This document shows, piece after piece, positions 14,134 through 14,914 of a stretch of 64,000 bases of DNA; the first letter of the stretch is position 1; each line of letters opens with the position of its first letter. The stretch is from Flavobacteriaceae bacterium D16 (GTDB taxonomy: Bacteria > Bacteroidota > Bacteroidia > Flavobacteriales > Flavobacteriaceae). The notes beneath the pieces were generated by a model. It was not told the DNA's origin, ran no database searches, and saw nothing but the letters and a program-made list of their open reading frames with translations. The stretch lies in assembly GCA_021295155.1 (NCBI GenBank), contig JAJTJC010000035.1, positions 496,001 through 560,000 on the forward strand, given 5' to 3'. The position numbers and the translations under genes are program-made.

Positions 14134-14164
14134 AAACCCCAACTTCAATAGTTGGGGTTTTTAT
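14134..14164 (+). terminator. Rho-independent terminator of the M28 gene
   Basis: The stem AAACCCCAAC/GTTGGGGTTT with a 7-nt loop is followed by a T-run, 22 nt after the stop codon. Confidence 0.9.
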
Positions 14165-14217
14165 TTTGACGATCTCTGGTTTCCTTAGTTAAGCAAAGAG
14201 GGCGTTGACTACTAAAT

Positions 14218-14460
14218 TTATTTTAGGCCATACTTTTTAATAAACCTAATTTTCCTGCTCCTGCTAAGATTTTTGAGTTTCCGTTCAAGCATAAGCGCTT
14301 CTTTTATATTAGGCTTTATAACTATACATTCCAATATCCAGGGAATACCTGATGACGTATACGTTGACATACCCTGGTTATGTTCAAAGAATCGCTTAGA
14401 AATATTTCTGGTTTGGCCAACGTAGAATCGGCCTAGTTTTTCTGAGGAAATTATGTACAC
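14218..14460 (-). CDS. Small GIY-YIG nuclease-family protein
   Basis: 80 residues. The GIY-YIG core reads VYIISSEKLGRFYVGQT with the catalytic-type arginine in NISKRF and the conserved His-Asn of FEHNQG, ending in the helical LERKLKNLSRSRKIRFIKKYG tail of the UvrC/YhbQ-like single-domain group. The only start in frame is GTG at 14460. The usual His-Phe before Val-Tyr-Ile-Ile is encoded just upstream, but no ATG exists between it and a stop codon six codons before the GTG, so the 5' end may be eroded. A palindromic repeat unit lies just upstream and another by tRNA-His. The role of these small proteins is not settled. Confidence 0.75.
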   Translation of the reverse strand: MYIISSEKLGRFYVGQTRNISKRFFEHNQGMSTYTSSGIPWILECIVIKPNIKEALMLERKLKNLSRSRKIRFIKKYGLK

Positions 14461-14535
14461 AAAATGCGACAGCCTTTAGATTTATGAACAAAATAAAAAG
14501 TGGACAATGAAAAAACAATTCAGGTAGAAAAAAGT

Positions 14536-14632
14536 GCTGACGATCCTGTGAGGATGTCAGCACTGCTTCCGCTATACTCTTTGGCCAGCCTGCTGACCGA
14601 CCAGGAGTGTAGGTAGGACCGACCAAAGGGAG
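14536..14632 (-). repeat. REP-like palindromic repeat, copy 1 (includes a terminator)
   Basis: A 68-bp unit (14536-14603) is almost identical to copy 2 at 14756-14823, with one difference in 68. It contains hairpin 1 (GCTGAC 14536-14541 with GTCAGC 14556-14561, inner ATCC/GGAT). Read on the minus strand this is followed by TTTTTT, so it is a rho-independent terminator. Hairpin 2 (CTCTTTGG 14577-14584 with CCAAAGGGAG 14623-14632) is stretched by a local duplication of GACCGACCA. Confidence 0.75.
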
Positions 14633-14755
14633 TATTCAATATCATTACAGGTTTTAATACTTACAACCTATCAAAGTATATGTGTAGTGAGAATTGGTTT
14701 GTTTTGAAAAAATTCGATATCTAAAAGTGAGTTGGATTGGGGTGAAAAAAGTAGC

Positions 14756-14828
14756 GCTGACGATCCTGTGAGGATGTCAGCACTGCTTCCGCTATACTCT
14801 TTGGCCAGCCTGTTGACCGACCAAAGAG
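14756..14828 (-). repeat. REP-like palindromic repeat, copy 2, terminator of tRNA-His
   Basis: The second copy of the unit, 220 bp from the first. Hairpin 1 is GCTGAC (14756-14761) with GTCAGC (14776-14781), and hairpin 2 is CTCTTTGG (14797-14804) with CCAAAGAG (14821-14828). On the minus strand hairpin 1 is followed by a T-run (complement of 14745-14750), making this the likely terminator of tRNA-His, whose 3' end is 12 nt upstream. Confidence 0.75.
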
Positions 14829-14839
14829 AGCGTCAGTAG

Positions 14840-14914
14840 GGTGGAAGACCGGGTTCGAACCGGCGACCTCTGGAACCACAATCCAGCGCTCTAACCAGCT
14901 GAGCTACAACCACC
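14840..14914 (-). tRNA. tRNA-His (GTG)
   Basis: Read on the minus strand, the D arm GCTC/GAGC, an anticodon arm with loop TTGTGGT (anticodon GTG) and the T arm with TTCGAAC are intact. The extra 5' G (14914) facing C73 (14840) is the histidine identity element. Acceptor arms GTGGTTG and CTTCCAC pair at five of seven positions, leaving two adjacent T-T mismatches (5:68 and 6:67). CCA is not encoded. The gene is isolated and followed by the palindromic repeats. Confidence 0.85.

Follow-up and report, generated by a model that had tools for sequence, protein, structure and literature searches.

What is a very small gene for a putative GIY-YIG nuclease doing beside a tRNA-His gene and two near-identical hairpin repeats in the genome of Flavobacteriaceae bacterium D16? 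The locus lies in a stretch of 64,000 nt, which is called the window below. In REP/RAYT systems a small gene for a DNA enzyme, a Y1 transposase, lies beside palindromes, and the original prediction saw a parallel layout here. The features of the locus are the following:

14839..14913, minus strand: intact tRNA-His(gtg) (ARAGORN; Rfam RF00005, 59.8 bits)
14756..14823, minus strand: proximal 68-bp trailer unit, 15 nt past tRNA-His (repeat comparison; fold z -8.4)
14797..14828, minus strand: first hairpin of the proximal unit, CTCTTTGG..CCAAAGAG (sequence, fold)
14753..14784, minus strand: second hairpin of the proximal unit, terminator-like and followed by a T run (sequence, fold)
14536..14603, minus strand: distal 68-bp unit, upstream of the GIY-YIG gene (repeat comparison)
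14533..14564, minus strand: terminator-like hairpin of the distal unit (fold of 14525-14640, z -4.9)
14218..14460, minus strand: GIY-YIG nuclease gene, 80 aa from a GTG start (ORF, PF01541, AlphaFold2)

The order on the minus strand is therefore tRNA-His, 68-bp unit, spacer, second 68-bp unit and GIY-YIG ORF, and the two copies of the unit, 220 bp apart, differ at one position. When each unit was folded with its flanks and compared with 200 shuffles, two hairpins were obtained for the proximal unit (-49.8 kcal/mol, z -8.4) and likewise two for the distal unit (z -4.9); none of the 200 shuffles matched the native fold in either case. The repeat pair with its single mismatch, the hairpins in each unit and their placement, one after tRNA-His and the other upstream of the nuclease gene, had thus been correctly recognised in the original prediction.

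In a search of the whole genome, the 68-bp unit was found in two copies, both at this locus, and the further matches were two partial ones of 24 nt (E 2.4). Among 98 relatives besides the window's genome (G000), a DNA search gave the unit only in a congener (G002), in which the arrangement is the same as in the window, and otherwise two matches of 28-30 nt; the same search did not find the unit in the 87% complete genome of a second congener (G001). Both copies read GTATAG in G000 and GCTAG in G002, and loop letters are likewise private to each genome. These features common to both copies of a genome indicate that the copies were homogenised or duplicated more than once. The 68-bp unit is a duplicated tRNA-His trailer and terminator. 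Having two genomic copies it forms no REP family, and the same count ruled it out as a dispersed REP. The proposed tie between this repeat and GIY-YIG genes across relatives did not hold up when it was checked: G002 was the single case among the 98, and other GIY-YIG relatives carry pieces of their own tRNA. A search for partial copies revealed no tRNA-His fragment at the window's locus or at that of the congener, where the trailer only is duplicated, and in the window both trailer copies lie on one and the same side of the ORF. Past the 3' end of the gene (14160-14215), there are 12 nt similar to the beginning of the trailer unit. We rejected this stretch as a third trailer copy, since 17 of 500 shuffles are as good; it may be a decayed copy.

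The predicted protein belongs to the GIY-YIG nuclease superfamily, as judged from its match to the Pfam profile PF01541 (E 3.6e-13, 50 bits against a curated cut-off of 22.6, residues 2-70). Eight residues (Y, S, Y, G, R, H, E and K) are invariant across 22 aligned members. The AlphaFold2 model (mean pLDDT 96.1) consists of a bare GIY-YIG domain forming one compact unit and, the Pfam match filling residues 2-70 of the 80 aa, there is no DNA-binding domain beside it. Seg and I-TevI enzymes carry such a domain, and SegB is larger than the proteins of the units described below. Lacking this domain, the window's protein was filed as one that may work like Seg enzymes, not as a Seg member. The closest solved structures by profile were UPF0213 proteins (1zg2, 1.7e-17), then SLX1, then the catalytic domain of I-TevI. 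A fold search of the model agreed with the profile, UPF0213 being the best but a weak match (E 5.7e-3, TMq 0.63). The likeness to UPF0213 (1zg2, 1ywl) thus concerns size, fold and both of these searches; to our knowledge, UPF0213 proteins have never been described as tRNA-linked mobile units. The NCBIfam label of group I intron endonuclease was weak (25 bits, cut-off 56), and the ORF is intergenic, outside any intron.

The reading frame is open upstream to a CTG at 14472, the counterpart of an ATG in G002, so that the first canonical start in the window is a GTG four codons in. The 5' end had been described as eroded. The usual ATG is indeed missing, but "eroded" is too strong a word, as comparison of the gene between G000 and G002 gave a pN of 0.105 against a saturated pS of 0.89, a ratio that indicates strong purifying selection.

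PF01541 was detected at nine places in the window's genome, the frame being small (81-113 aa) at six of them and long (595, 376 and 460 aa) at the other three. One small gene adjoins tRNA-His, two adjoin tRNA-Asn, two lie between tRNA-Ser and tRNA-Pro and one follows the tmRNA. The first five are 374, 73, 288, 21 and 206 nt from the nearest intact tRNA. The sixth is 651 nt after the tmRNA and 43 kb from any tRNA on its contig, and for the three long-frame domains the distance to any tRNA of the same contig is 66-408 kb. Stretches no more than 400 nt from one of the 36 intact tRNAs make up about 1.1% of the genome; on this basis, five of six small genes at 374 nt or less corresponds to P ~8e-10 (400-nt cut-off), or to 5e-6 when counted as three of four separate loci. 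The tRNA-Pro locus reads tRNA-Ser, degraded tRNA-Pro, GIY-YIG, degraded tRNA-Pro, GIY-YIG, intact tRNA-Pro. It contains a 300-nt repeat whose copies are 99% identical and spaced at 319 bp. The degraded tRNA-Pro carries TCACGCC..GGCGTGA in place of the T-arm, and one such copy is still recognised as a tRNA at 39.3 bits (gathering score 29). We propose, with a probability of about 0.6, that the gene in the window is the tRNA-His member of a group of minimal, free-standing GIY-YIG selfish genes of homing type that live on tRNA loci.

Linkage to tRNA genes was also observed in other genomes. In a scan of genome contigs for the best 80 of 121 relatives, a tRNA was present within 600 nt in 53 of the 80 loci, 72 of 73 such tRNAs were on the strand of the GIY-YIG gene, and tRNA density was 0.83/kb near the gene against 0.029/kb elsewhere in those loci. 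A search with the congener's protein gave a match at E <= 1e-11 in 28 of 249 family genomes, with a tRNA within 1.5 kb in 26 of 30 loci, the remaining four being shortened by a contig end. After pooling, 133 of 218 non-redundant small GIY-YIG ORFs were within 600 nt of a tRNA or tmRNA, a fraction that is overstated because the pool and the scans feeding it were built from tRNA-linked proteins or their loci. Less biased counts are those of the window's own genome, of one locus set with 36 ORFs (15 linked) and of Bacteroidota PF01541 loci with 28 ORFs (10 linked); the latter two indicate that tRNA linkage is usual in only part of the family. An element carried mainly by viral contigs was considered and rejected, since two peptide patterns, which set the sensitivity of the search, recovered a single relative from IMG/VR. 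Seven Arenibacter loci (L066, L071, L074, L080, L082, L084 and L092) are about 550 nt or less from a contig end, as if GIY-YIG/tRNA-Pro arrays broke short-read assembly. At L041:672-826, a Flavo-1 RNA (RF01705) is found less than 1 kb from an unlinked small GIY-YIG gene.

The nearest tRNA or tmRNA was on the same strand in 133 of 133 linked ORFs and downstream in 89, and the ORF stop fell inside the tRNA in 42 of 82 cases; in 34 of these it is a TAG at nt 8-10 of the tRNA, but tRNA-Pro(tgg) accounts for 33 of the 42. The TCACGC hairpin directly precedes the start codon in 27 of the 29 upstream stretches listed for tRNA-Pro(tgg), once with a changed base; of the other two, one comes from a distant genome and one is a mis-placed stretch, and some stretches have a second TCACGC hairpin in the D-loop. 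Such an arrangement would also suit a domesticated unit that serves the host and does not spread selfishly. Its nuclease and its pseudo-tRNA or hairpins would control, process or insulate the transcription of the tRNA, or would increase the number of tRNA copies when defence systems that cleave tRNAs attack. The tRNA-Pro(tgg) pseudo-tRNA that keeps its hairpin and, in the copy mentioned above, still scores as a tRNA, points in the same direction, as does the account of SegB, whose amplification of tRNA-Tyr is described as defeating Septu (PMC13096335). A host-serving unit does not sit well with scattered occurrence at one and the same tRNA among related genera, with the many isotypes involved or with arrays holding stop-containing copies (two of four in G142), and we regard it as unlikely.

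A second, partial copy of the same tRNA was found across the nuclease gene in 86 of 132 linked rows, in each of which it scored better than all 30 shuffles, and no significant tRNA fragment in the other 46. The 132 rows include loci reached twice (e.g. L088/L236 and L100/L237); removal of these repeats reduced the 86 to 69 for the palindrome test described below. By side, a partial copy was present in 69 of 89 rows with the tRNA downstream and in 17 of 43 with the tRNA upstream. Individual units, the anatomy of which was read by eye, measure about 300-400 bp and contain one GIY-YIG ORF of 75-110 aa plus a duplicated piece of tRNA or trailer. In the commonest form, a partial or degraded tRNA copy, often with a palindrome, is followed by the ORF and then by the intact tRNA. 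A second form starts with the intact tRNA and its terminator, followed by the ORF and by a 3' piece of the tRNA with a terminator. In the His form, the intact tRNA and its trailer hairpins, duplicated in this genus, are followed by the ORF. One Flavobacteriaceae genome has three units, spaced at 304 bp, ahead of tRNA-Pro(ggg); in these a hairpin takes the place of the anticodon arm. Units at tRNA-Asn and tRNA-Arg carry TCCCGATAGCTATCGGGA in the D-loop, and the tRNA-Met unit repeats a GIY-YIG gene, a tRNA-Met 3' half with the TCCCGATAGCTATCGGGA palindrome at the anticodon loop, and a terminator. Copies of tRNA-Gln (partial, 54/54 nt) were found in a Staskawiczbacteria MAG, of tRNA-Glu (22 nt) in Parcubacteria, of tRNA-Asn (21 nt) in Omnitrophota, of tRNA-Ala (26 nt, anticodon arm exchanged) in Nitrospiria and of tRNA-Gly (28 nt) in Gracilibacteria. 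Tandem arrays occurred in 6 of the 28 genomes matched by the congener's protein (G000, G028, G142, G217, G252 and G259).

A nuclease tree was built from 156 of the 218 ORFs, short, near-identical and end-cut unlinked ones having been dropped, and the nearest tRNA was taken as the target. Its resolution is that of 79 alignment columns, with 13 of 153 inner branches starred and 75 forks open. The linked or unlinked state changed 11 times on the tree against 39-52 times in 100 shuffles, and the isotype of the 101 linked proteins 40 times against 54-58 in 100 shuffles (35 against 42-49 when tRNA-Pro was left out). On this tree, nuclease clades track tRNA isotype. Five tRNA-His proteins, from five genomes, fall into one clade of seven (SH-aLRT 97), together with one Ser- and one Pro-linked protein.

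Occupied and empty sites were compared at the same tRNA genes. In G188, G187 and G147, tRNA-His adjoins the same M28 peptidase gene (tblastn, 57-66% identity), and in two of these the same bshB-like gene as well. Among 30 loci anchored on the M28 gene, tRNA-His was near in 22, two of which had a GIY-YIG gene (G000 and G010). That of G010 (L184) is a member of an unlinked clade, and its tRNA linkage is probably due to chance. The gaps between tRNA-His and the M28 gene in L181, L183 and L185 measure 828-1210 nt and gave no GIY-YIG match. Among the best-matching tRNA-Pro(tgg) loci, one per genome, a GIY-YIG gene was present in 1 of 30 (G000), the occupied tRNA-Pro copies of G038 and G041 (L023 and L024) being among the matches but outside these 30. 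The distance from tRNA-Ser to tRNA-Pro was 3-256 nt in 20 empty loci with tRNA-Ser alongside, against 752 nt in G000. Presence or absence of the gene therefore varies between genera at both the tRNA-His/M28 and the tRNA-Ser/tRNA-Pro sites. The intact tRNA-Pro of the occupied G119 was identical over 76 nt to that of five genomes in which the copy compared has no GIY-YIG gene, which indicates that occupation leaves the body of the tRNA unchanged, so that the occupied allele would have to escape cutting in some other way.

These observations also bear on a plainer account, according to which tRNA loci are tolerant and prone to recombination, a repair gene of the ordinary UPF0213-like kind simply parks in them, and replication or recombination has left the duplications behind. 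That UPF0213 proteins are the closest solved relatives of the profile, and that many small GIY-YIG genes are unlinked, is what one would expect on this account. Clades that track isotype and complete strand agreement are not expected from it, and eight of eight Firmicutes loci of the contig scan, which have no tRNA within 1.5 kb, argue against it too. We consider such passive parking quite improbable.

For the homing-type selfish gene that we prefer, genome comparison shows where and on which strand the units lie, that they hold duplications, follow isotype and form tandem copies, that sites may be occupied or empty, and that the window's gene is under purifying selection; from this we infer cleavage and mobility. 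The nuclease would cut alleles devoid of the GIY-YIG gene at or near the tRNA gene, and repair from the occupied allele would copy the unit in. The essential tRNA would survive, an intact one being either left in place or brought along by the unit, and the displaced copy would diverge afterwards. The occupied allele would be protected from cutting. Repeated rounds of breakage and repair could amplify the unit or the trailer and could have produced the two homogenised 68-bp copies observed here, and the hairpins upstream of the gene may curb transcription running on from the tRNA promoter, so that the gene is expressed at a low level. Several observations count against homing. The protein has no separate DNA-binding domain with which it might find one tRNA gene, the tRNA-Pro of the occupied G119 is unaltered, the window's locus has a duplicated trailer but no tRNA-His fragment, 46 of the 132 linked rows show no significant fragment, many small GIY-YIG ORFs of the less biased sets are unlinked, and at a stem of at least 6 the palindromes described below differ little from intact tRNAs.

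SegB of phages T4 and T6 is described as a GIY-YIG enzyme that cuts inside phage tRNA genes and amplifies them, cutting being favoured by the motif RAWTSGAAC (PMC13096335), and hairpins and distant cleavage sites are reported for the free-standing endonucleases of T4 (PMC2988022). From these accounts, the units resemble SegB in having a GIY-YIG domain and no intron, in their position among tRNA genes of many isotypes, and in the tandem amplification ascribed to SegB. On the other strand, the SegB motif as given there resembles the tRNA T-loop, a part that is replaced in displaced tRNA-Pro(tgg) copies. SegB belongs to phage genomes, whereas the units described here are on bacterial chromosomes and encode a single domain of 75-110 aa; moreover, the accessible text of PMC13096335 and PMC2988022 mentions neither displaced copies of the same tRNA nor clades that track isotype. 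A second parallel is provided by mobile ORFs with a duplicated host-gene end, described at Glomus atp6, atp9, cox2 and nad3 and at Allomyces atp6 (PMC3630166). There, as in the units, an endonuclease ORF sits at an essential gene with a partial copy of that gene, the native end being displaced; according to the same source, the Glomus atp9 ORF is of GIY-YIG type and the other three Glomus cases are LAGLIDADG. The fungal ORFs reported in it are at mitochondrial protein genes, whereas the present units are at bacterial tRNA genes, with a displaced copy that often carries palindromes. The duplicate of the host gene across the ORF is a feature of 86 of the 132 rows of the wider set, the window's locus having only the trailer, on one side.

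In a literature search judged mostly by titles and the openings of abstracts, with most subscription papers outside its coverage, no description of chromosomal GIY-YIG/tRNA units with displaced tRNA copies was found. If our reading is true, many genes annotated merely as GIY-YIG family would gain a lifestyle and a target, and tRNA genes would house elements far smaller than the known islands that use them. It would then also follow that bacterial chromosomes, like fungal mitochondria, harbour elements that carry part of their host gene with them. Each nuclease points to its own candidate substrate, the neighbouring tRNA gene.

The palindromes of the units were analysed at the break of the displaced copy. 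Of 69 distinct cases, 50 had a perfect stem of at least 6, compared with 12.4% of 1380 other windows. This control, taken from mostly coding DNA of the same loci, is too easy because tRNA arms are hairpins themselves, and at the same offset in intact tRNAs such a stem was present in 38 of 69 cases, little below the displaced copies. With a stem of at least 7, the counts were 39 of 69 displaced copies, 13 of 69 intact tRNAs and 4.3% of the 1380 windows. An excess thus remains at this stem length, weakened by the intact-tRNA control. The break palindromes themselves (TCCCGA..TCGGGA, CCTGCC..GGCAGG and similar) are not tRNA arms.

One of them, TCCCGAT-N4-ATCGGGA, found inside displaced tRNA copies, is present in 24 of 60 family genomes. 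G000 and G099 each have a single copy of it, the former in the displaced tRNA-Asn and the latter in a tRNA-Asn GIY-YIG locus (L029). Among 40 hand-chosen stretches carrying it in 10 genomes, including one (L298) already known to be near a GIY-YIG match, a GIY-YIG ORF was present within 1 kb in one and a tRNA in four. All copies of TCACGC-N3-6-GCGTGA in G000 (two), G028 (two) and G038 (one) are at a tRNA-Pro GIY-YIG locus; the same palindrome occurs in 17 other genomes of the 60, and the tRNA-Pro units of G041 and G020 have TCCCGC..GCGGGA instead. The idea that the palindromes are exclusive to GIY-YIG units was therefore rejected. This mixed distribution indicates that palindromes are frequent in the units, and neither uniform nor exclusive.

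A broader version of the selfish-gene reading would make the units bacteria-wide elements of about 300 bp, each combining an isotype-specific GIY-YIG nuclease with a matched palindrome. The inserted unit would displace a tRNA copy, the palindrome would replace one arm and mark that copy as spent, and the unit would supply or preserve an intact tRNA. It would be the GIY-YIG equivalent of REP/RAYT, a parasite of tRNA genes found in Bacteroidota, Patescibacteria, Omnitrophota and Nitrospiria. We hold this version to be conceivable but doubtful, and lowered our estimate of it because the matched intact-tRNA control weakened the palindrome test.

The original idea of a REP/RAYT-like system, with a GIY-YIG nuclease that mobilises palindromes, was right in that the link between GIY-YIG gene, hairpins and tRNA is real, and indeed more general than proposed. 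The excess of stems of at least 7 and the five TCACGC copies confined to tRNA-Pro GIY-YIG loci in three genomes could be taken to favour it. The enzyme is, however, a GIY-YIG nuclease and no Y1 transposase, the 68-bp unit is an undispersed trailer, the TCCCGAT palindrome abounds in places with no GIY-YIG gene nearby (33 copies in G039), and the TCACGC palindrome is neither restricted to these three genomes nor common to all tRNA-Pro units, all of which makes such a system very unlikely. Descent from group I introns of tRNA genes that carried a GIY-YIG homing gene, for which one could cite the weak NCBIfam label and the occurrence of group I introns in tRNA genes (PMC3984707), is largely refuted, as Rfam detected no group I intron, and hence no ribozyme core, in the window or in two sets of 18 related loci, and the intact tRNA adjoins the gene unsplit.

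Other repeats were noticed in the course of this work. In G039, with its 33 copies of TCCCGAT-N4-ATCGGGA (e.g. L301 and L310), none of 12 stretches examined had a GIY-YIG ORF, and a tRNA was within 1 kb of the palindrome in 2 of these 12 and in 2 of 3 stretches of G052 (which include L311 and L312). The palindrome is a dispersed REP-like family that may favour tRNA surroundings. In G010, between tRNA-His and the M28 peptidase gene (L184:2373-3605), inspection by eye placed the GIY-YIG gene amid several copies of another palindromic repeat, GACTGCCGCGGCC..GCAGTGACG, which is probably a separate repeat system. Finally, the region from the tmRNA to the sixth small GIY-YIG gene of G000 (L010:796-1433) contains tandem hairpin repeats in steps of 55 and 107 bp, with a 217-bp unit that is 97% identical.
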